Source: Jiangella alba
Lineage (GTDB): Bacteria > Actinomycetota > Actinomycetes > Jiangellales > Jiangellaceae
Length of the DNA: 64,000 nt
Assembly: GCF_900106035.1 (NCBI RefSeq)
Contig: NZ_FNUC01000004.1
Coordinates: 2,976,001-3,040,000, forward strand
Direction: 5' to 3'
How positions within the stretch are numbered: the stretch's first letter is position 1; the number at the start of each line of letters is the position of its first letter. The position numbers and the translations under genes were made by a program. Below the pieces are notes generated by a model. It ran no database searches. It was not told the DNA's origin and saw only the letters and a program-made list of their open reading frames with translations. Below, one piece after another: positions 39,995 through 51,459 of the stretch.

Positions 39995-41248
39995 TCAACC
40001 TCGTCCGCTGCTGGCGCGGGCCCGCCGGGCGATCGCGTCGATGGACACCGCGAGCAGCAGGACCGCTCCGGTGACGATGTAGCGGACCGACGAGTCGACG
40101 CCGATGCGGTTGAGGCCGCTGGTGATCGCCGTCAGCACCAGCACGCCGAGCAGCGCGGAGTAGGCCGACCCGCGCCCGCCGAACAGGCTGGTGCCGCCGA
40201 TGACCGCCGCCGCGATGGCCGTCAGGTTGACGTCGTTGCTGCCGCTGGCCTGCGACACCGACGTCAGCCGGGCGAGGAACATCAGGCCGCCGGTCGCGGC
40301 CAGCGTGCCGGTCAGCGAGAACGCCGAGATGTAGATCCAGTTGACGTTGATGCCGGACCGGCGAGCCGCCTCGACGTTGCCGCCGACGGCGTACAGGTGC
40401 CGGCCCCACGTCGACTTGCGCAGCACGAGGTCCATCAGCACGACCAGCCCGATGAAGAACACCACGGCGTAGCCCCAGCCGCGGTCGATGTTCAGGTAGT
40501 ACGTCAGGAAGCCCAGCCCGCCGAGCAGGATCGCCGACTTCACCAGCACCAGCGTCAGCGACTGCGCCGGCAGCCCGGCGGCCGTCCGCCGCCGGATCCC
40601 GATGATGCTGACCAGCGCGTACAGCGCCACGATCGCCAGCACGACGACGTAGGAGACGGCCGGGCTGAGGAAGTCCTCGCGGGCGAACTGCGCCAGCGGC
40701 GACGTCCGCGGCAGGTTGATGGTGCCCTGGTCGCCGAGCACGACGTACTGCACGCCGACGAAGCCGAGCAGCCCGGCCAGCGTGATGACGAAGCTCGGCA
40801 CGCCGATCTTGGTGAAGATCAGCCCGTACGCGATGCCGATGGCGGCACCCGTGCCGGCGCCGGCCAGGATGCCGAGCACGAGCGGCTGGTCCTGGTTGAC
40901 CACCAGCACCGCCGTGATCGACGCCGCAAGGCCGCTGATCGAGCCGACCGACAGGTCGATCTCGCCGAGCAGCAGCACCAGCACGATGCCGACCGCGATG
41001 ATGCCGTAGGGCACCGCGTTCAGCGTGATGTTCACCAGGTTGCTCGACGACAGGTACGTGACGTCCTGCAGGTAGAAGACCAGGCCGATCACGAACAGCC
41101 CGATCACCACCGGCAGCAGCCCGAGATCGCCGTCGCGGATCCGCCGCCGGAACGCGTCGGCGGCGCCGCGCAGCCCGGTGTCCTGGGCCAGCCGCTCGTC
41201 GATCAGGTCGGACCGGGCCGCGGTCTCGTCGGCCTGTGTCCTGCTCAT
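39995..41248 (-). CDS. Importer A: CUT2 sugar ABC permease (XylH-like)
   Basis: A 417-residue inner-membrane permease with about ten helices. GIVLVLLLGEIDLSVGSISG is the family motif, and IGGTSLFGGRGSAYSALLG marks the last part. A long central insert (IGIRRRTAAGLPAQSL) is typical of XylH-like proteins. Its ATG overlaps the ATPase stop by four bases (ATGA), so it is the last gene of the binding protein-ATPase-permease operon. The sugar is inferred to be a pentose or related monosaccharide from the XylF/ChvE-type binding protein. Confidence 0.92.
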   Translation of the reverse strand: MSRTQADETAARSDLIDERLAQDTGLRGAADAFRRRIRDGDLGLLPVVIGLFVIGLVFYLQDVTYLSSSNLVNITLNAVPYGIIAVGIVLVLLLGEIDLSVGSISGLAASITAVLVVNQDQPLVLGILAGAGTGAAIGIAYGLIFTKIGVPSFVITLAGLLGFVGVQYVVLGDQGTINLPRTSPLAQFAREDFLSPAVSYVVVLAIVALYALVSIIGIRRRTAAGLPAQSLTLVLVKSAILLGGLGFLTYYLNIDRGWGYAVVFFIGLVVLMDLVLRKSTWGRHLYAVGGNVEAARRSGINVNWIYISAFSLTGTLAATGGLMFLARLTSVSQASGSNDVNLTAIAAAVIGGTSLFGGRGSAYSALLGVLVLTAITSGLNRIGVDSSVRYIVTGAVLLLAVSIDAIARRARASSGRG

Positions 41249-42066
41249 TCCGGCCCCCCTGGCGCCTCACGGCGGGCGTTGCGTTCGGCGACGACGTTGT
41301 CCGACGCGCCGGTGATGGCGGCGACGAGCTGCTCGGTCGTGACGTCGACGGCGCGGAACTCGGCCTCGTTGCGGCCCAGCCGCAGCACCACGATGCGGTC
41401 GGCGACGGCCTGCACGTCGGCCATGTTGTGGCTGATCAGGACCACGCCGAGGCGCTGCTCGCGCAGCCGCTCGACGAGGTTGAGCACCTCAGCCGTCTGC
41501 GCGACGCCCAGCGCGGCGGTCGGCTCGTCCAGCATGACGACCTTCGGCTGGCCCACCAGGCTGCGGGCGATCGCGACGGTCTGCCGCTGGCCGCCGGAAA
41601 GGCTGGCCACCGGGATGCGCACGGTCGGGATCTTCGCGCCCAGCTCGCGCAGCAGCCGCCAGGACTCCTTCTCCATGGCGACCTCGTCCATCCACGCCTT
41701 CGTCCCCAGTTCGCTGCCGAGGAACAGGTTCGCGACGACGTCGAGGTTGTCGCAGAGCGCGAGGTCCTGGAAGACCGTCGCGATGCCCAGCGACTGCGCG
41801 GCGCTCGGGCTGTGGATGTGCACCTGGCGGCCCTCGACCCGCATCGCGCCGGAGTCGGCCTGGTACACGCCGGACATGATCTTGACGAGGGTCGACTTGC
41901 CAGCGCCGTTGTCGCCGACCAGGGCGACCACCTCGCCGGCGCGGACCTGGAAGTCGACCCCGGCCAGCGCCTGCACGGCGCCGAAGTGCTTGCCGATCCC
42001 GGTGAGCTCCAGGACCGGCCCGGTCGTGGCGGCGGACGCACCGCTCTCGTGTGTGGCGACGCTCAT
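41245..42066 (-). CDS. Importer A: sugar ABC ATP-binding protein (single-domain, XylG/FrcA-like)
   Basis: A 273-residue ATPase with Walker A GDNGAGKST, signature LSGGQRQTVAIARSL, Walker B VVMLDEPTAALG and H-loop VLISHNMADV. Most CUT2 ATPases are two fused domains of about 500 residues; this has one, like FrcA. ATG 42066 is used because GAGGAG precedes it; the frame extends 17 codons further, but that part is the intercistronic hairpin. It lies between binding protein and permease genes. Confidence 0.92.
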   Translation of the reverse strand: MSVATHESGASAATTGPVLELTGIGKHFGAVQALAGVDFQVRAGEVVALVGDNGAGKSTLVKIMSGVYQADSGAMRVEGRQVHIHSPSAAQSLGIATVFQDLALCDNLDVVANLFLGSELGTKAWMDEVAMEKESWRLLRELGAKIPTVRIPVASLSGGQRQTVAIARSLVGQPKVVMLDEPTAALGVAQTAEVLNLVERLREQRLGVVLISHNMADVQAVADRIVVLRLGRNEAEFRAVDVTTEQLVAAITGASDNVVAERNARREAPGGPE

Positions 42067-42088
42067 CGGCACCATCTCCTCATCGTCA

Positions 42089-42120
42089 AGGGTGGCACCG
42101 ACCTGGGTCGGTGCCACCCT
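42089..42120 (-). promoter_or_regulatory. Perfect intercistronic hairpin between importer A binding-protein and ATPase genes
   Basis: AGGGTGGCACCGACC pairs with GGTCGGTGCCACCCT without a mismatch, 15 nt after the binding-protein stop and 22 nt before the ATPase start. There is no T-run. In sugar importer operons such hairpins protect the upstream message and lower downstream expression, keeping binding protein in excess. Confidence 0.7.
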
Positions 42121-42135
42121 CGTCGTCTCGACGGA

Positions 42136-43230
42136 TCAGCTGAGACCGGCGGCCGCGCAGGCGTCCGCATAGTCGTCGGTGCAGATGTCGTCGACCGTCC
42201 AGAAGTCGTCGGCCACCACGGTGTCGGCGACGTTGTCGGTCGTGACCACGATCGGGTCGAGGATCAGCGACGGCACGCCCTGGAAGTCGGTGGTGTCGGC
42301 GACCTCCTCGCCGTTGACGATCGAGATGGCCATCTCGGCGGCGCCCTCGGCCTCGCCCTTGATCGGCTTGTAGATCGTCATGTACTGCTCACCAGCGACG
42401 ATGCGCTGGATGGCGGCCAGTTCGGCGTCCTGACCGGTGACCGGCGGCAGCTGGTCGGCCGGCAGTCCGGCGCCGGTGAGCGCCGCGATGACGCCGCCGG
42501 CCTGGCCGTCGTTGGCGGCGTAGACCCCGGCCAGCGTCGTGGGATCGATGGTGTCGAGCTGGTCCGTCGTCCACGCCTGCGCGTTGTCCGGGCTCCAGTC
42601 CGGGTTGTCGTACTCGCCGACGACGGTGAGCTCGCTGCCGTCGATGACGCTGTGCGCGCCGGACTTGAACATGGCCGCGTTCGGGTCGTCGGGCGAGCCG
42701 TTCAGCATGAGGACGTCGCCCGCGCCGCCGACGGCGTCGACCAGCGCCTGGCCCTGCAGCTCGCCGACCTTCTCGTTGTCGAACGAGGTGTAGTAGTCGG
42801 CGCCCTCGATGAAGCGGTCGTAGGCGATGACGGGGATCTCGGCCGCCTGCGCGTCGGCCACCAGCGCCGCCGCTGCCTGGCCGTTCACCGGGTCCAGCAC
42901 CATGACGTCGACGCCCTGCGAGATGGCGGTGTCGACCTGCTCGGCCTGCTTGGTCTCGTCCTGGTCGGCGTTGAAGTAGTTGATCGTGCAGTCGGGGCAC
43001 AGGTCCGCGACCTTGGCCTCGAACAGCGGGCGGTCGAACGCCTCGTAGCGAGCGGTCGCCGACTCCGGCAGGAGCAGGGCGATGGTGGCGGCGCTGCCGC
43101 TACCGGTGCTGTCGCCGCTCGCGGTCCCGTCGCCGCCGCCGTTGTCTTCGTTGGCGCCACAGGCGGCCAGCGCGCCGGCGGCCAGGGCGAGGACTGCGAA
43201 GACGGCAGCCCGTCGGTTGGGCTGGTGCAC
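42136..43230 (-). CDS. Importer A: sugar-binding lipoprotein (XylF/ChvE-like)
   Basis: A 364-residue periplasmic-type binding lipoprotein with lipobox ALAACGAN (Cys24). The mature part has TIALLLPESATARYEAFDRP, the opening of XylF/ChvE-type sugar-binding proteins, a repeated QDAELAAIQRIVAG motif and VYAANDGQAGG. GTG 43230 is chosen because AAAGGAGGG sits just upstream and it gives a compact signal. It is first in the operon, behind the ROK gene, which likely controls it. It is paralogous to the importer B binding protein, and both begin with the same ALLLPExxTARYE pattern. Confidence 0.92.
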   Translation of the reverse strand: MHQPNRRAAVFAVLALAAGALAACGANEDNGGGDGTASGDSTGSGSAATIALLLPESATARYEAFDRPLFEAKVADLCPDCTINYFNADQDETKQAEQVDTAISQGVDVMVLDPVNGQAAAALVADAQAAEIPVIAYDRFIEGADYYTSFDNEKVGELQGQALVDAVGGAGDVLMLNGSPDDPNAAMFKSGAHSVIDGSELTVVGEYDNPDWSPDNAQAWTTDQLDTIDPTTLAGVYAANDGQAGGVIAALTGAGLPADQLPPVTGQDAELAAIQRIVAGEQYMTIYKPIKGEAEGAAEMAISIVNGEEVADTTDFQGVPSLILDPIVVTTDNVADTVVADDFWTVDDICTDDYADACAAAGLS

Positions 43231-43377
43231 GGTGAAACCCTCCTTTGGGTTCAGCCCCCGCCGACAGCTCGGCCGGGTGAGGTCGAGTGTGGAACGGTGC
43301 CCCGTTGCCGTCAAGGCTCAAATACATTACGCGTTTACATCTTGTTTATGTGTTCGTATTTCGACAGCAATACGGCG
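43231..43377 (-). promoter_or_regulatory. AT-rich promoter region of the importer A operon
   Basis: Between ROK stop and binding-protein start the 40 bases at 43320-43370 are strikingly AT-rich, with near-repeats around GTTTACATCTTGTTTATG that could form a ROK operator. On the minus strand TTGACG and CACACT, 17 nt apart, are a possible -35/-10 pair. AAAGGAGGG is the ribosome site. No clean palindrome was found. Confidence 0.4.
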
Positions 43378-44535
43378 TCAATCGCCGGCGGAGAGGGATG
43401 CGACCAGCGCACCCACCGCCTCCGTGCCCTCGCCGAGCGGCGAGATCGCGACGCGGGTCCGCTCCGCCACGCCGGGCAGCACCGCCCGGCGGAAGCCCTG
43501 ACGGACGGGGCCGAGCCAGGCGTCGCCGGCGGCGAGGAGGGGCCCGCCGAGCGCGATGTCGGCGGGGTTGAGGATCATTGCGAGCCAGCCGAGGCCGCGT
43601 CCGAGCAGCTCGCCGGCGTCCTCGAGCACGTGCACCGCCACCGGGTGGCCGTCGTTGATGAGGCCGAGCACCTCGTCGAGTCCGAGGTCGCGCTGCAGCG
43701 CCGAGCTCAGCGCCGTCCGCACCGACTCCGCCGACCCGACGGTCTCGAGGCAGCCGCGCCGCCCGCAGCGGCACACCACCGACAGTCCCGGATCGAGCGC
43801 GAGGTGGCCGATCTCGCCGGCCGCGCCGGAGTCGCCGCGCAGCAGCTCGCCGCCGACGGCCACACCGGCGCCGATGCCGGAGCCGACCTTGACGAACACC
43901 ACCGACCGGCCGGCCCCCGCCCGGCGGGCCAGCGCGAGCGCGCCGAGGTTCGCGTCGTTCTCGACGACGACCGGCCGGCCGAGCAGCCGCGCCACCTCGT
44001 CGCGCAGCGGGAACCCGACCAGCGCGGGCAGGATCGCGGTTTCGGTGACGACGCCGGTCGCGGTGTCGATGGGCGCGGGGACCCCGACGGCGACGCCGGC
44101 GATCTGGGCGCTGGTGAGCCCGGCCTGCTGGCGCGCCGACGCCGCGAGCGCGCCGATCACCTCGAGCACGGTGTCGGGGCGCAGCCCGCCGTCGAGCACG
44201 ACGGCCGACTCGGCCAGCACGTCGCCCGGGGCGGCGCCGGCGACCACCTTGACGTGCGTGCGGCCGAGGTCGACGCCGATGCCGTAGCGCAGCCGCACCG
44301 GCGCCCGCTCGACCAGGCGGCTGCGCCGGCCGTTCGCCACGCCCTGTCGCACGACCAGCTCGCCCTCGTCGACCAGGGCGCGGACCAGCCCGGAGATGGT
44401 GGCCGGGGCGAGTCCGGTCAGCCGCGCCAGCTCGGCCTGGCTGACCGCCTGCGCGGCCGGCAGCGCACCCAGCAACCGCCGCCGGTTGGCCAGCCGCAGG
44501 GCGGACAGCGACCCGGGACCGGACACGTCAGGCAC
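43378..44535 (-). CDS. ROK-family transcriptional regulator
   Basis: A 385-residue repressor of the NagC/XylR group. The HTH is near the N-terminus (QAVSQAELARLTGLAPATIS). The ROK body has GIGVDLGRTHVKVVAG, GVAVGVPAPID, ENDANLGALA, the zinc-binding CRCGRRGCLE and a closing ALGGPLLAAG. It sits on the same strand just upstream of importer A and 294 nt downstream of importer B, so it may respond to the transported sugar or its phosphate and control one or both. Which one is inference. Confidence 0.92.
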   Translation of the reverse strand: MPDVSGPGSLSALRLANRRRLLGALPAAQAVSQAELARLTGLAPATISGLVRALVDEGELVVRQGVANGRRSRLVERAPVRLRYGIGVDLGRTHVKVVAGAAPGDVLAESAVVLDGGLRPDTVLEVIGALAASARQQAGLTSAQIAGVAVGVPAPIDTATGVVTETAILPALVGFPLRDEVARLLGRPVVVENDANLGALALARRAGAGRSVVFVKVGSGIGAGVAVGGELLRGDSGAAGEIGHLALDPGLSVVCRCGRRGCLETVGSAESVRTALSSALQRDLGLDEVLGLINDGHPVAVHVLEDAGELLGRGLGWLAMILNPADIALGGPLLAAGDAWLGPVRQGFRRAVLPGVAERTRVAISPLGEGTEAVGALVASLSAGD

Positions 44536-44828: not shown

Positions 44829-45980
44829 CTAGCGGCCGGGCCGCGAATGCTCGCGGAACGGGGTCACCTCGGCACGGTGCGCCAGGGTGTCCAGCCCGAC
44901 GGCGACGGCGAGGACGAGGCCGGTCGCGATCAGCCGGATCGGCGACGACGCGCCCATAAGGTCCAGCCCGTTGGCGAGCGACCCGACGACGAGCGCGCCC
45001 AGCAGCGCCGACCACACCGTCCCGCGGCCGCCGAACAGGCTGGTGCCGCCGATGGCCGCGGCCGCCACCGCCGTCAGCATGAGGTCGGTGCTGCCCGACG
45101 ACTGGTTGACGGCGAGCAGCCGCGACGCCGCGAGGATGCCGCCGGTGACCGCCAGCACGGACGCCAGCATGAACACCACCAGCCGGATGCGGTCGACGCC
45201 GATGCCCGCCCGCCGCGCCCCCGACGCGTTGCTCCCCGTCGCCACCGCGTGCCGGCCGAGCTTCGTGCGCCGGACCATGAGGTCGCCGCCGGCCAGCAGC
45301 AGGAGGAACACCACGACCGCCAGCGGCACGCCGCGGTCGGCGTTGAAGACGGCGGCCGCCACCGGTGCGCCGATGCCCGCCACCACCCACGGCCAGACCC
45401 GCCGCGCCGGCCGGTCGCGTTCGCGGCGCAGCGACCCGACGATCGCCACGACGGCGCCCGCCGTCACCGCCGCGGCCAGCGCCCACCCGGCGGCCGGCGC
45501 CAGGAACGTCCCCGCGATGGCCACCAGCTGGGGGTCGTCGATGTTCACCGTCCCGGTGTCGCCGAGCACCAGCAGCAGCGCGCCCTGCCACGTCAGCAGC
45601 CCGGCCAGCGTCACCACGAACGACGGCACGCCGACCCGCGTCACCATGGCGGCGTGCGCCAGCCCCACCAGCGCGCCGGTCGCCAGTCCCGCGAGGATCG
45701 CGAGCACGGCCGGCCAGTCCTGCTTGACGCTGAGCACGGCGGTGACGGCCGCGCCGAACCCGGACACCGCGCCGACGGAGAGGTCGATCTCGCCGATCAG
45801 CAGCACCAGGACGACGGCCACCGCCACGGCGCCGACGGCGACGATCTGCAGCATGAGGTTGGTGAGGTTCACCGCGGACAGGAACCGCGGATTGCTCAGG
45901 CTCATCACCAGCCAGATGACGGCCAACGCGGCCGGCGGCGCCCAGCGGCCGAGGCGGGCCGGCGACACCGAGCCGCTCAC
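44829..45980 (-). CDS. Importer B: CUT2 sugar ABC permease
   Basis: A 383-residue membrane permease with the family motif VLVLLIGEIDLSVGAVSG and IGGTSLFGGRGTVWSALLG, plus a central insert RRERDRPARRVW like importer A's. It is paralogous to the importer A permease. GTG 45980 overlaps the binding-protein stop (GTGA). It is the last of four coupled genes whose only ATPase is the N-terminal domain of a histidine-kinase fusion, so that fusion must power it unless an outside ATPase, such as importer A's, is shared. Confidence 0.92.
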   Translation of the reverse strand: MSGSVSPARLGRWAPPAALAVIWLVMSLSNPRFLSAVNLTNLMLQIVAVGAVAVAVVLVLLIGEIDLSVGAVSGFGAAVTAVLSVKQDWPAVLAILAGLATGALVGLAHAAMVTRVGVPSFVVTLAGLLTWQGALLLVLGDTGTVNIDDPQLVAIAGTFLAPAAGWALAAAVTAGAVVAIVGSLRRERDRPARRVWPWVVAGIGAPVAAAVFNADRGVPLAVVVFLLLLAGGDLMVRRTKLGRHAVATGSNASGARRAGIGVDRIRLVVFMLASVLAVTGGILAASRLLAVNQSSGSTDLMLTAVAAAAIGGTSLFGGRGTVWSALLGALVVGSLANGLDLMGASSPIRLIATGLVLAVAVGLDTLAHRAEVTPFREHSRPGR

Positions 45981-47074
45981 GGCGCGCCGTCCTGGGCCAG
46001 CCCGGCGGCGGCGCACTCGGCCGCGAGGCCTTCGCAGATCTCGTCGACCGTCCAGAACCCGTCGGCGACCACGGTCGCGGCGATGGTGTCGCGGGTGACG
46101 GCGACCGGCGTCAGCATGAGCGCCGGGACCCGCCCGTGCCCGTTGTCGACCCAGTCGGTGCGCAGCCCGTCCGGCGGCTCGCCGGTCCGCGCCAGGCCGA
46201 CGGCGACGTCGGCGGCGGCCTGGGCCTGCGTGCGCACGGCCTTGTAGACCGTCATGTACTGCTCGCCGGTGAGAATGCGGCGCACGGCCGCCAGTTCGGC
46301 GTCCTGCCCGGTGACCGGCGGCAGCGGGTCCAGCCCGGCCGCCTTCATCGCGGCGATGGCGCCGCCGGCCATGCCGTCGTTGGCCGCGTACACACCGGCG
46401 ACGCGGTCGCGGCCGAGCGTCGTCAGGGCCCGCTCCATCGCCTCCTGCGCCTGGTCGGGCGACCAGTCGGGCACGTCGACCTCGGCGCCGACGGCGACCC
46501 CGGCGCCGTCGAGGACGCTGTGCGCGCCGCGCCGGAACAGCGCCGAGTTGTCGTCGGTGGGCGAGCCGTTCAGCACCACCAGCTCGCCGTCGGTCGCGCC
46601 GACGGCGGCCAGCAGCACCTCGGCCTGCAACTGGCCGACCTGCTCGTTGTCGAACGTGACGTGGAAGTCGACCGGTGCGTCGAGCACCAGCCGGTCGTAG
46701 CTGACCACCGGGACGCCCGCCGCGTGCGCCTGCCGGACGATGACCGACGCCGACCGGGAGTCGACGGGGTCGAGGACCAGCACGTCGGCGCCGTTGGTGA
46801 GCGCCGCCTCGGCCTGCGCCTGCTGGTGCGCGGCGTCCTGGTCGGCGTTGCTGACCAGCGTCTCGCACTCGGCGCAGATCTCGTGCACGCGCTCGACGAA
46901 CGCCGGGCGGTCGTGCGACTCGTACCGGGCGGTCTTGTTCTCCGGCAGCAGCAGCGCGATCTGCAGCTCGCCGTCGCCGGACCCGGACCCGGACGTGCCG
47001 GCCGCACCGCAGGCGCCCAGCGCCAGGACGAACACCGCGGGCAGGGCGGCGGCGAGCAGGTGGCGGCGGGCCAT
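45977..47074 (-). CDS. Importer B: sugar-binding lipoprotein
   Basis: A 365-residue binding lipoprotein with lipobox LALGACGA (Cys22). The mature domain begins LQIALLLPENKTARYESHDRP and shares VYAANDGMAGGAIAAMKAAG and GQDAELAAVRRILTGEQYMT with importer A's protein, including a CAEC motif where importer A has CPDC. ATG 47074 overlaps the response-regulator stop by one base (TGATG) and its own stop overlaps the permease start by four. It likely captures the sugar and presents it to the permease, whose occupancy could be read by the kinase-fused ATPase. Confidence 0.92.
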   Translation of the reverse strand: MARRHLLAAALPAVFVLALGACGAAGTSGSGSGDGELQIALLLPENKTARYESHDRPAFVERVHEICAECETLVSNADQDAAHQQAQAEAALTNGADVLVLDPVDSRSASVIVRQAHAAGVPVVSYDRLVLDAPVDFHVTFDNEQVGQLQAEVLLAAVGATDGELVVLNGSPTDDNSALFRRGAHSVLDGAGVAVGAEVDVPDWSPDQAQEAMERALTTLGRDRVAGVYAANDGMAGGAIAAMKAAGLDPLPPVTGQDAELAAVRRILTGEQYMTVYKAVRTQAQAAADVAVGLARTGEPPDGLRTDWVDNGHGRVPALMLTPVAVTRDTIAATVVADGFWTVDEICEGLAAECAAAGLAQDGAP

Positions 47075-47769
47075 CAGAGGTCCGTCGTGAACCGGTAGCC
47101 GGCCCGCGGCTCGGTGACGATCAGCTCGGCGCCGTCGGGCCCCTCCAGCTTGGCTCGCAGCCGCCCGACGTACACGCGGGTGTACTCGGTCTGCGTCTCG
47201 TAGCCCGGGCCCCAGACCCGGCGCAGCAGCTCGGCGTGGGTCAGCAGCCGGCCGGGGTGCATCGCCAGCTCGCGCAGCAGCGCGTACTCGGTGCGGGTGA
47301 GGTGCACCCGCTTGCCGCCCTTCGTGACCAGCTGGGCGTCGAAGTCGATGCGGACGTCGCCGACGCGGACCTGCGGCGCCACCAGCCGCGGCTCGGCCGG
47401 ACGGGCCCGGCGCAGCATGGCGTTGATGCGGGCCAGCAGCTCCTCGATGCCGAACGGCTTGGTGAGGTAGTCGTCGGCGCCGAGGTTCAGCGCCCGCACC
47501 TTGTCGGTCTCGCCGCGCCGTGCCGACAGCACGATGATGCCGACGTCGGAGCGGTCGCGCACCGCCCAGCACAGGTCGAAGCCGTCGCGGCCGGGCAGCA
47601 TGAGGTCGAGCAGGACGACGTCGGGCGCGGCCTGCTCGAGCAGCCGCAGCACGTCGGAGCCGTCCGTCGACACCACCACCCGGTAGCCGCGGGCGGTGAG
47701 GTTGGACCGCAGGACGTCGACGATGATGCGGTCGTCCTCGACGATGAGGACGCCGGGCTCCTCAGCCAT
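47074..47769 (-). CDS. OmpR-family response regulator
   Basis: A 231-residue two-component regulator. The receiver has acidic pocket EDDR, phosphoacceptor Asp55 in VVLLDLMLPG, and Lys104 in YLTKPFG. The C-terminal winged helix has RVHLTRTEYALLRELAMHPG and VYVGRLRAKLEGPDG. Its start overlaps the ABC-kinase fusion stop by eight bases and its stop overlaps the binding-protein start by one, so it is the cognate partner of that kinase. The KdpE-like layout is notable. Confidence 0.93.
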   Translation of the reverse strand: MAEEPGVLIVEDDRIIVDVLRSNLTARGYRVVVSTDGSDVLRLLEQAAPDVVLLDLMLPGRDGFDLCWAVRDRSDVGIIVLSARRGETDKVRALNLGADDYLTKPFGIEELLARINAMLRRARPAEPRLVAPQVRVGDVRIDFDAQLVTKGGKRVHLTRTEYALLRELAMHPGRLLTHAELLRRVWGPGYETQTEYTRVYVGRLRAKLEGPDGAELIVTEPRAGYRFTTDL

Positions 47770-50158
47770 CGCTCTCCTCGCCCTCGGCGGGCTCGACCGG
47801 CAGCGTGACGCGGAAGCCGGACTCGGGCCCGGTGGTCAGCTCGACCCGGCCGCCGTGCGCCTCGGCGATGCCGCGGACGATGGCCAGGCCCAGCCCGGCG
47901 CCGGTGCTGCCCTCGCCGCGCACCCGCGGCTCGAAGATGCGCTCCGCGACGTCCGCCGGGATGCCCGGGCCGTCGTCGCTGACCAGCACCTCGACCGACG
48001 CGCCGCCGTCGACGGCCGCGGCGGCGACCCGGACGGCGCCGTCCGGCCCGCCGTGGCGGACCGCGTTCTCCAGCAGGTTGACGAACACCTGCTCGAGGCG
48101 GTCGTGGTCGGCCCAGATGGGTGGGAGGCCCGCGGCGACACCGATCTTGACCCGGCCGGGGTGCGGCACGCAGCTGCGCGCCGCCTCGAGCACCAGCCGC
48201 ACGTCCGTCCAGTCCGGACGCAGCCGGAGCAGCCCGGACTCGATGGCGGAGGAGTCGAGGAGGTCGCCGACCAGGCGTTCCATGCGCGCGGACTCGGTGG
48301 TGATGGCGGCGAGGAAGCGGTCGATCGACTCGGGGTCCCAGACGAGGTCGGGCTGCTGCAGCGTGGAGGCGTAGCCGTGGATCGCGGTCAGCGGCGTGCG
48401 CAGCTCGTGGCTGAGGTGCTGCAGCACCTCGCGCTGCAGCTGCTGCGACCGGCGGGCGGCGGCCGCCTCGCGGCGGGCCCGTTCCAGCATCTCCCGCTCC
48501 AGCGCCAGCGCGAGCGAGCGGCGGGCGTCGTCGAGCAGCTCGACGGCGTCGCGGCCGGGCTCGGCGGGATCGTCCCAGCGGGCCAGCAGCAGCCCGGTGC
48601 CGCCGGGGATCGGCAGCCCCGCGAGCGCCAGCCCGTCGCCGATGCGCCGCGGCCGGTCGGTGCCGGTGGGCGCGGCCTCGGCCAGCGCCTTCAGGTCCGA
48701 GCCGGCGGAGTCATCCAGATCGATGTGCACCCAGCGCGCCTCGCCGCCGGTCAGCTCGGCGACGTCGGTGAGCAGCATGCCGGCCGCGCGGGCGCCGAGG
48801 CCGCGGCAGAGCGCGAGCAGCGCGGCGGACAGGCCGCCGTCGACGCGGTCGGGGCCGGCCAGCGTCTCGAGCATGGCCCGCAGCGACTCGAGGATCTCGT
48901 TGCGCCGGCTCACCTCCTCGATCAGCCGCTCGCGCTCGATGGCGCTGGCGGCGTGGCCGGCGTAGAGCGAGACCAGCTCGCGGCGGTCGGCGTCGAGGCG
49001 GCCGGCGGACGTGCTGAAGCCGGTGATGGTGCCGAGGACGCCGGACGAGCCGACGATCGGCGCGGACCACGCGCTGCGCACGCCGGCCGCGGCGGCCCGT
49101 TCCAGGTACCCCGTCCACGTGGCGTCGTCGCTGGTGTCGTCGACGACCACCAGCTGCCCGAGCGCCGCGGCCGCGCCGACCAGCCCGCCGGCCGTGCCGA
49201 CCGGGACCAGCGCGGCGTCGTCGGCCAGCGCCGGCGGCAGCCCGATGGCGGCGGTGCGGCGCAGCAGCGGCCCGCGCGGCGCGTGGTCGAGCAGGTGCAC
49301 GCAGAGCATGTCCTGGTCGAGCGCGGCCGCCGTGGCCGAGACGACGAGCGGCAGCGACGCGGCGGGGTCGGCGGCGGAGAGCTGCTCGACCAGGCTCTTG
49401 AGGCGGTTCAGCTGCCGCCGCGCCGCCGACTCGGTCTCGATGCCCGACATCAGCGCCGCGACGTCGTCGGAGTGCACCTCGGCCGGCGACACCCCGGCGA
49501 CGATGCGGCCGTGGCGCAGCACGACGATGCGGTCGGCCAGCGCGAACACCTCGTCGAGGTCGTGGCTGACCAGCACGATGGCCCGGCCGTCGTCGCGCAG
49601 GTCGCTCAGCACGCGCATGATCTCGGCCCGCCGCAGCACGCTCAGCGAGGCGGTCGGCTCGTCCAGCACCAGCAGGTCGGCGCCGGTGGACAGCGCCCGG
49701 GCCAGCGCGACCTCCTGCCGCTGCCCGCGCGACAGGGTGTCGACCCGGGCCCGCACGTCGGTGAGCTGCGAGCCGAACCGCTCCAGCGCCTGCCGGGCGT
49801 CGGCGGCCATGCGGCTCTCGGCCAGCAGCAGCCGGGAGTGCTCGCGGCCGAGGAAGACGTTCGCGACGACGTCGAGGTCGTCGCAGAGCCCGAGATCCTG
49901 CCAGACGACGGCGACCGGCGCCTTCGCGCCGTCGGCGGCCACCACCACCTGGCCCTCGTCGACGTCGGTGTCGCCGGCGATGCAGCGGACCAGCGTGGAC
50001 TTGCCGGCGCCGTTCTCGCCGACGACGGCGACGATCTCGCCGCCGCGCACGCTCAGCGTGACGGCGTCGAGCGCGCGCAGCCGTCCGTAGCGCTTGGTGA
50101 CGCCGCGCAGCTCGAGGATCGGCGCGGCGCTGCCGCGGCGGCCGTCGCCGTCGGTCAT
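47762..50158 (-). CDS. Importer B: ABC ATPase fused to GAF-like regions and a histidine kinase
   Basis: A 798-residue single polypeptide. Residues 12-240 are a sugar-importer ABC ATPase: Walker A GENGAGKST (47-55), signature LSRGQRQEVALARAL (142-156; usual form LSGGQ), Walker B LLVLDEP (162-168), H-loop His199. Two GAF-like regions lie at about 260-410 and 430-555, joined by helices. The kinase follows: H-box LSHELRTPLTAIHGYAS with His584, N-box NLLENAVRHGG, G1 DDGPGIP (728-734), G2 GAGLGLAIV. There are no membrane segments, so it is tethered only through the permease. ATG 50158 lies 4 nt after MG-rich DNA; ATG 50194 is an alternative. The fusion couples transport to signalling. Confidence 0.93.
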   Translation of the reverse strand: MTDGDGRRGSAAPILELRGVTKRYGRLRALDAVTLSVRGGEIVAVVGENGAGKSTLVRCIAGDTDVDEGQVVVAADGAKAPVAVVWQDLGLCDDLDVVANVFLGREHSRLLLAESRMAADARQALERFGSQLTDVRARVDTLSRGQRQEVALARALSTGADLLVLDEPTASLSVLRRAEIMRVLSDLRDDGRAIVLVSHDLDEVFALADRIVVLRHGRIVAGVSPAEVHSDDVAALMSGIETESAARRQLNRLKSLVEQLSAADPAASLPLVVSATAAALDQDMLCVHLLDHAPRGPLLRRTAAIGLPPALADDAALVPVGTAGGLVGAAAALGQLVVVDDTSDDATWTGYLERAAAAGVRSAWSAPIVGSSGVLGTITGFSTSAGRLDADRRELVSLYAGHAASAIERERLIEEVSRRNEILESLRAMLETLAGPDRVDGGLSAALLALCRGLGARAAGMLLTDVAELTGGEARWVHIDLDDSAGSDLKALAEAAPTGTDRPRRIGDGLALAGLPIPGGTGLLLARWDDPAEPGRDAVELLDDARRSLALALEREMLERARREAAAARRSQQLQREVLQHLSHELRTPLTAIHGYASTLQQPDLVWDPESIDRFLAAITTESARMERLVGDLLDSSAIESGLLRLRPDWTDVRLVLEAARSCVPHPGRVKIGVAAGLPPIWADHDRLEQVFVNLLENAVRHGGPDGAVRVAAAAVDGGASVEVLVSDDGPGIPADVAERIFEPRVRGEGSTGAGLGLAIVRGIAEAHGGRVELTTGPESGFRVTLPVEPAEGEESDG

Positions 50159-50201
50159 CCCCCCATCTTCGCCGACGACGGCCGGGCTCGCCATCGCCGC
50201 A

Positions 50202-50981
50202 TCATGCCAGCGTGCGGACGAACTCCTGCACCGTCGTCGCGGGACGGCCGAGCAGCCGGTCCAGGTCCGGCGTCGGCGTGCCGAACTGGGGGAGCCGCAG
50301 CAGCGGCAGGACGAAGGCCATGCCGGACTCGTCGTCGGAGACCTCCCTGTACGGCAGCCCGAGCGCCTCGGCCAGCTGCGGGTACGTCCAGCCGGGCCCG
50401 CGCAGCTCGTACACGGCGCCCTCGTGACCGTCGCCGGTGAGCACCGCGCTCGCCGCCAGGGCCAGGTCCGCGATCGTCGCGGTGACCAGCGGGTGCCCGA
50501 TGGCCGGCGCGGTCACCTCGGCGGCCGTCGCCACGTCCGGCCGCACCAGCTCCTCGGTGTAGAAGGTGTTGCGCAGGAACGTGTGCGCGAGGCCGGCGTC
50601 GCGGATGGCCCGCTCGGTCGTCGTGTGGTCGGCCAGGAAGCTCTGCCCGTCCTCGGCGGTGATCGCGCTGGTGTAGACGACGTGCCCGGCCTTCGCGGTG
50701 GCCGCCGCCGCGACGACGTTGGCGTGCTGGCGGGCCCGCACACCCGGCGTCGTGTCGGAGGCGGAGACGAACAGCAGCCGGTCGGCGCCCTCGAACGCGT
50801 GCTCCAGGCTCGCCGGGTCGTCGTAGTCGGCCTGCCGCACGTCGACGCCGCGCTCGGCGAACCGGTGCGCCTTCCCGGGGTCGCGCGCCACGACGGCTAT
50901 CTCGTCGGCCGGCACCTTCGCGATCAGGTCCTCGACCACCACCGGCCCGAACCGGCCGGTCGCCCCGGTCACCACGATCAT
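50202..50981 (-). CDS. NmrA/QorB-like NAD(P)-binding oxidoreductase
   Basis: A 259-residue Rossmann-fold protein: IVVTGATGRFGPVVVEDL, ARDPGKAHRF, DRLLFVSASDT, FLRNTFYTEELV. It resembles QorB quinone oxidoreductases and NmrA redox sensors, which lack the SDR Tyr-Lys pair. ATG 50981 follows GGAGA at five bases. It is divergent from an HxlR regulator, the arrangement of qorA/qorR-type pairs, and ends 44 nt before the ABC-kinase fusion on the same strand, so read-through is possible. Confidence 0.85.
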   Translation of the reverse strand: MIVVTGATGRFGPVVVEDLIAKVPADEIAVVARDPGKAHRFAERGVDVRQADYDDPASLEHAFEGADRLLFVSASDTTPGVRARQHANVVAAAATAKAGHVVYTSAITAEDGQSFLADHTTTERAIRDAGLAHTFLRNTFYTEELVRPDVATAAEVTAPAIGHPLVTATIADLALAASAVLTGDGHEGAVYELRGPGWTYPQLAEALGLPYREVSDDESGMAFVLPLLRLPQFGTPTPDLDRLLGRPATTVQEFVRTLA

Positions 50982-51042
50982 GTCTGTCTCCGATCTCTTG
51001 GTCACTGTCGAAAGTGACGTTAACCTGGAGACTCACTTGATG

Positions 51043-51056
51043 AAAGTACGTACCTT
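51043..51056. promoter_or_regulatory. HxlR operator candidate
   Basis: AAAGTACGTACCTT is a near-perfect 14-bp dyad (GTACGTAC core, one arm mismatch). It lies between the divergent NmrA-like and HxlR genes, 22 nt before the HxlR start, where HxlR-type autoregulators bind. Confidence 0.55.
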
Positions 51057-51078
51057 GAGGTAACCAACGGAGGCCGAC

Positions 51079-51459
51079 GTGAGCATCGAGGTCAGCAGTG
51101 GGTGGCCGGCCCGCGCCGGTGACGTGTTCGACCCGAACTGCCCGTCGCGGGGCGTGCTCGAGCACGTCACCAGCCGGTGGGGCGTGCTCGTGCTGGCCGC
51201 GCTGGCCGAGCGGGAGCTGCGTTTCGGCGCACTCCACCGGCGCATCGGCGGGGTGAGCCAGAAGATGCTGGCCCAGACGCTGCGCGCTCTGGCCGCCGAC
51301 GGCTTCGTCGAGCGGACGGTCGTCCCGGCGGCGCCGCCGCAGGTCAGCTACCGGCTGACGGACACCGGTGAGCAGGTCGCGGCGCACGTCGCCGGGCTGG
51401 TCGGCTGGATCGAGCGGCAGCTGCCGCGGATCCTCGCCGCGCGGGAGGCCGCGCTCTAG
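51079..51459 (+). CDS. HxlR-family regulator
   Basis: A 126-residue winged-helix regulator. It has the HxlR N-terminal cysteine segment FDPNCPSRGVLEHV, WGVLVLAALAE, LHRRIGGVSQKMLAQTLRAL and the wing VSYRLTDTGEQV. HxlR proteins of the QorR/YodB type sense electrophiles through that conserved cysteine. It is divergent from the quinone-reductase-like gene with a dyad between them, so control of that gene is likely. GTG 51079 is preceded by a weak GGAGG-like site. Confidence 0.9.
   Translation: MSIEVSSGWPARAGDVFDPNCPSRGVLEHVTSRWGVLVLAALAERELRFGALHRRIGGVSQKMLAQTLRALAADGFVERTVVPAAPPQVSYRLTDTGEQVAAHVAGLVGWIERQLPRILAAREAAL

Follow-up and report, generated by a model that had tools for sequence, protein, structure and literature searches.

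A conserved fusion of a sugar-importer ABC ATPase domain with a histidine kinase in Jiangella alba and other Actinomycetota

Results and discussion

What does a soluble histidine kinase sense when the ATPase domain of a sugar importer is part of its own polypeptide, and could that same domain also power the importer? This question is raised by a four-gene operon found in a 64,000-nucleotide stretch of the genome of the soil actinomycete Jiangella alba (contig NZ_FNUC01000004.1, positions 2,976,001 to 3,040,000), hereafter referred to as the window. The four genes, given in order of transcription with window coordinates, are the following.

47762..50194, reverse strand: ABC-GAF-GAF-histidine kinase fusion (Pfam, motif table, invariant columns and fold matches)
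47074..47769, reverse strand: response regulator of the OmpR/PhoB type (Response_reg and Trans_reg_C; receiver D55 and K104; winged-helix C-terminus)
45977..47074, reverse strand: XylF/ChvE-like sugar-binding lipoprotein (Peripla_BP_4, 1.8e-62)
44829..45980, reverse strand: CUT2-type sugar permease (BPD_transp_2, 2.2e-24)

Domain composition of the fusion and its operon partners

The fusion comprises 810 residues from the ATG at 50194 and 798 from a second ATG at 50158, the phospho-acceptor being His596 in the longer numbering (used here) and His584 in the shorter one. Four Pfam matches, each far over its own cut-off, cover the protein (ABC_tran 42-182, 9.5e-27; GAF_2 283-420, 9.7e-13; HisKA 587-654, 5.9e-16; HATPase_c 696-799, 2.6e-24) and, together with the motifs, bear out the original prediction of a 798-residue protein joining an ABC ATPase, GAF-like regions and a histidine kinase. 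According to the motif table, the fused ABC domain of the window holds the full set of Walker A (59-67), Q-loop (Q99), signature (LSRGQ, 154-158), Walker B (D178/E179) and H-loop (H211) motifs. It aligns with the N-terminal half of the AraG/YtfR/XylG ATPase models, and is the single ABC domain of the fusion, which thus differs from the double ABC ATPases of about 500 residues (AraG/RbsA/XylG type). On the kinase side, the phospho-acceptor H596 in HisKA, the N (N710) and G boxes of HATPase_c and the receiver Asp encoded by the adjacent gene are all there and, judged by these residues, the fusion and the neighboring regulator are a putative orthodox histidine kinase/response regulator pair. A PADLOC match to mad3 (81 residues) reflects the shared ABC core alone and is meaningless for the fusion.

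Between the two catalytic parts, a second GAF-like domain (about 452-540) has no Pfam match and is visible at the fold level alone. Residues 270-580, modeled alone (pLDDT 82.6), match tandem GAF-GAF and GAF-PHY structures (PDE5A, Cph1 and Cph2) over nearly the full stretch (Z 17-18, rmsd 5.4-6.3, 277-294 residues), and the GAF-like regions are thus best described as two GAF domains in tandem with long connecting helices. Signaling helices are seen in the predicted model of the fusion, the full-length version of which is of moderate quality (pLDDT 71.7, pTM 0.36). No membrane segment was found in the fusion, where the best 19-residue hydropathy is 1.72 (in GAF1) versus 2.99 in the permease, in agreement with the kinase having been predicted to lack one. 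The further claim that the transporter is therefore the only route by which the kinase could obtain outside information was overstated, since the two GAF domains leave room for another input, a cytoplasmic ligand for which the imported sugar would be one candidate.

For the regulator, binding-protein and permease genes, the overlaps noted earlier (8, 1 and 4 nt) were confirmed by reading the sequence (47762-47769 for fusion and regulator, TGATG at 47074 for regulator and binding protein, 45977-45980 for binding protein and permease). As the Peripla_BP_4 binding protein and the BPD_transp_2 permease share one operon, the importer is of the CUT2 type, with the window proteins staying below the equivalog cut-offs of the CUT2 models (for the binding lipoprotein, XylF at 5.3e-72). 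The permease carries an altered coupling helix, GSNASGARRAGI, from residue 249 (see below). Upstream, 7 bp separate the end of an NmrA-like gene from the first ATG of the fusion (region 50202-51459) and a divergent helix-turn-helix gene, HxlR-like by eye, lies at 51079-51459 on the forward strand; the NmrA-like gene adjoins the fusion in most Jiangella loci and not in Phytoactinopolyspora. Upstream of 26 fusion genes, a search for operators in the form of direct repeats (period 10-12 bp) returned nothing convincing, the hits being G+C-rich words alone, in at most three regions and barely over shuffles.

Distribution

Once overlaps between samples were removed, the fusion was present in 30 genomes from several classes of Actinomycetota, a count that includes one genome (G943) in which it is divided between two contigs; the taxon searches were centered on this phylum, with other phyla covered less than exhaustively. 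Full-length fusions occur in 12 of the 22 family genomes compared and, within the genus, in 9 of 12. Beyond the family, they are sparse: four more were found in the class sample (394 genomes), three in the phylum sample (396), and others in two further classes (4/66 and 10/395 genomes). The best named matches are from Jiangella (J. muralis, 96%), and further named carriers are Phytoactinopolyspora, a Nocardioidaceae MAG, Micropruina and Conexibacter. No second fusion was found elsewhere in the genome to which the window belongs, and none in viral contigs and plasmids.

The frame is intact in many genomes, at 41-99% identity, and this conservation across species rules out an assembly artefact as well as the frameshift that had been named as a possible refutation, in which the frame would fall into two genes near residue 240. 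Among the 22 family genomes, the orthologous permease is found in the 12 that have the fusion and in no other, and every complete operon pairs the fusion with the regulator and a CUT2 importer. The fusion arrangement is real and conserved, and it looks like a form of transporter-coupled two-component sensing.

Two operon forms and the ancestry of the fused ABC domain

From the reading of gene neighborhoods, a set of 29 complete operons was available for comparison. Ten of these, including the one in the window, are of the four-gene form, and the remaining 19 add a separate ATPase gene, usually in the order fusion, response regulator, binding protein, ATPase, permease. One operon with a separate ATPase (L099, 10847-13520) has a tandem pair of binding-protein genes. 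In the fusion tree, the ten operons that lack a separate ATPase group together as one clade (98/98 support). As this clade is nested among the others, it is simpler to assume that the separate ATPase was lost, on a tree whose root is weak. Since most relatives have a separate ATPase, the fused ABC domain probably began as a sensor input.

A single branch (100/98) splits the fused ABC domains from all separate ATPases, and the residue before the Q-loop Gln is Trp in almost all fused domains versus Tyr, Phe or His in separate ATPases, which together indicate that the fused domain is an ancient lineage rather than a copy made locally. A recent copy of the local ATPase was ruled out by this separate grouping and by the equal distances of the fused domain to the ATPase of its own operon (0.397) and to those of other operons (0.392).

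Permease-ABC interface and catalytic motifs

In permeases from operons with a separate ATPase, the coupling helix reads GGN.EAARRAGI, with minor variants (GNNPEAARR, GGNERAARL, GGSVEAARR and GGNAEASRR), while in all ten permeases from operons without one, GS replaces GG and the Glu is gone. On the ABC side, no more than seven columns (V57, G102, D106, A149, R156, S185 and I252) are fixed in the ten four-gene operons and rare elsewhere. Two of them, G102 and D106, lie in the groove that follows the Q-loop (LALCDNLD in most relatives, LGLCDDLD in the window), R156 belongs to the signature and S185 lies by the D-loop. Aligned on the Q-loop Gln, the G102 stretch corresponds to F81-Y87 of MalK, which accommodates the permease helix (PMC7658222), and D106 comes shortly after. 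Considering that the interface changes amount to one evolutionary event, accompanied by about 45 other clade-specific permease columns, they count as support and not as proof.

Loss of active residues in homologues had also been put forward as a refutation, and this happened in part: ATPase residues are lost in some relatives, while the kinase residues are invariant across the nine diverse fusion members aligned. The fused domain has retained all catalytic motifs in nine of the ten four-gene operons, the exception being L087 (10148-13531, from a genome that is incomplete at 64%), where the Q-loop Gln is replaced by Gly and the H-loop His by Arg, with the docking groove kept; these losses suggest a non-transporting receptor in that lineage. 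In the five-gene form, L023-L025 are without the H-loop His and the signature of L021 is degraded. The fusions of L023-L025 (from about 7992; Conexibacter, Solirubrobacterales) are also shortened (about 610 aa), with no second GAF domain, Arg in place of the H-loop His and a canonical separate ATPase adjoining. Compared between the same operons, the separate ATPases are more conserved than the fused domains (example mean 0.58 vs 0.45). In the Jiangellaceae, a rate test found the ABC domain about as conserved as the kinase and, given that five-gene pairs gave mixed results, this test does not separate a motor from a sensor. The pattern of motifs and conservation fits a sensor in the five-gene form and a possible motor duty in the four-gene form.

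The neighboring paralogous importer

Directly downstream of the fusion operon, at 39995-44535 on the reverse strand, a complete canonical paralogous importer is encoded.

43378..44535, reverse strand: ROK-family regulator, first gene of the adjacent importer
42136..43314, reverse strand: second XylF-like binding protein (SBP2), 53.5% identical to the first
41245..42117, reverse strand: separate single-domain ATPase (ATP2) with canonical motifs LSGGQ and SHN
39995..41248, reverse strand: second permease (PERM2) with an ordinary coupling helix, GGNVEAARRSGI

In a Phytoactinopolyspora locus (L080, 1731-6325), a ROK gene 66% identical to that of the window is divergent from the fusion operon and accompanies a different CUT2 importer; this position beside the fusion operon raises the possibility that the ROK regulator goes together with the fusion.

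Proposed mechanism and alternative readings

We regard it as fairly probable that the fusion works as a sensor kinase, with a sugar-importer ABC domain as its input, and that this domain docks on the permease and passes its nucleotide cycle on to the kinase. In such a mechanism, the kinase helices would dimerize two copies of the fusion, and the two ABC domains would dock on a homodimeric permease, a single ABC domain, a single permease gene and a dimeric kinase being compatible with a symmetric two-by-two complex. The sugar-loaded binding protein and nucleotide would make the ABC dimer open and close, and this movement could pass through the linker helix, the tandem GAFs and the signaling helix to the kinase, so that sugar loading or transport would control the response regulator. 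A further signal from the cytoplasm, e.g., the imported sugar, may come in through the GAFs. In the clade of the window, the fused domain, as the sole ATPase of the operon, probably powers the importer too, which we hold with less assurance than the docking. Against a motor role, the fused domain is unneeded for transport in the 19/29 operons with a separate ATPase and, in Jiangella, the canonical ATP2 of the adjacent importer could step in from outside the operon. The built-in trigger-transporter of the original prediction keeps the conserved fusion, intact motifs, importer linkage and matched interface on its side, but most relatives have a separate ATPase, a paralogous importer with its own ATPase adjoins the operon, and L087 has lost catalytic residues.

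It is also conceivable, though unlikely, that in the four-gene clade, the binding protein and permease have turned into a sensory part of the kinase and transport little or nothing, and that a separate importer (in Jiangella, ROK-SBP2-ATP2-PERM2) takes up the sugar and is a target of the regulator. The neighboring importer would suit this role, as, among the sampled sequences, PERM2 and SBP2 are nearest to the four-gene-set proteins (SH-aLRT 98 and 100) and PERM2 occurs in 9/9 Jiangella genomes with the fusion and in 0/3 without it. The loss of catalytic residues with a kept groove in L087 points in the same direction, and a precedent exists in KsAmt5, whose transporter domain binds and hardly transports (PMC8534201). 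However, the ABC motifs are intact in nine of the ten operons, and near L020, L078 and L075, no neighboring importer was found in the DNA examined. The latter loci have no such ATPase gene nearby either, which also speaks against a reading that we consider improbable, namely that a separate ATPase acting in trans (ATP2 in Jiangella) powers the permease while the fused ABC domain just reads its state, as presumably happens in the five-gene operons. A separate ATPase is the commoner state and multitask ATPases are known among type I importers (PMC7658222), but the coupling helix of the permease differs from that of PERM2 exactly where ATPase-paired permeases are conserved. Finally, the chances are slim that the ABC domain never touches the permease and serves the kinase as a sensor of free ATP/ADP or energy charge: the H-loop losses (L023-L025 and L087), the degraded signature of L021 and the lower conservation of fused domains than of the separate ATPases beside them would agree with it, while the conserved permease-docking groove and the strict linkage to a CUT2 importer would not.

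Comparison with known systems and implications

For the preferred reading, a sensor kinase with a docked ABC input, a close parallel is the PstSCAB-PhoU-PhoR/PhoB system, in which a kinase that has no outside sensor is believed to follow the conformational state of an ABC importer, and in which the signal depends on PstB variants with a predicted lock in the open or closed state (PMC5775613). There, the coupling goes through separate proteins (PhoU), whereas in the window the ATPase domain and the kinase are on one chain, in a sugar-class importer; on this analogy, the simplest reading is that the mechanism would be a covalent version of the PstB-PhoR proposal. In BceAB-BceS/BceR modules, an ABC transporter and a two-component kinase likewise act as one unit, primed by nucleotide binding (PMC10314905, PMC8534201), but the kinase is a separate membrane protein, the transporter handles antimicrobial peptides and there is no fusion, whereas the window kinase is soluble and goes with a CUT2 importer and its binding protein. 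A transporter is covalently fused to a kinase in CbrA and KsAmt5 (PMC7096432, PMC8534201); the fused part is then a membrane transporter (SLC5 or Amt), unlike the ATPase of an ABC importer in the window, where the kinase chain has no membrane segment. CUT2 importers such as XylFGH, AraFGH and GguAB-ChvE have a binding protein, permease and ABC domain of the same family as those of the window, but the CUT2 ATPase models describe free double ABC proteins of about 500 residues and not a single ABC domain on a kinase. No ABC-ATPase/histidine-kinase fusion was found described in a literature search that was thin in subscription journals.

We therefore put forward, tentatively and at somewhat under even confidence, an undescribed sensor-kinase family that reads an ABC importer via the importer's own ATPase and in which, in the clade of the window, one polypeptide would be both motor and kinase, directly coupling the import cycle to transcription-factor phosphorylation. 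The way in which a kinase that lacks an outside sensor can read an ABC importer, as in the case of Pst-PhoR, has been worked out only in part, as the coupling is spread over several proteins. With the ABC domain and the kinase on one soluble chain, this coupling becomes directly testable with purified parts, and the existence of both operon forms, one of them with a separate ATPase and the other lacking it, allows a natural comparison between an ABC domain that serves as a sensor and one that is probably sensor and motor at once.
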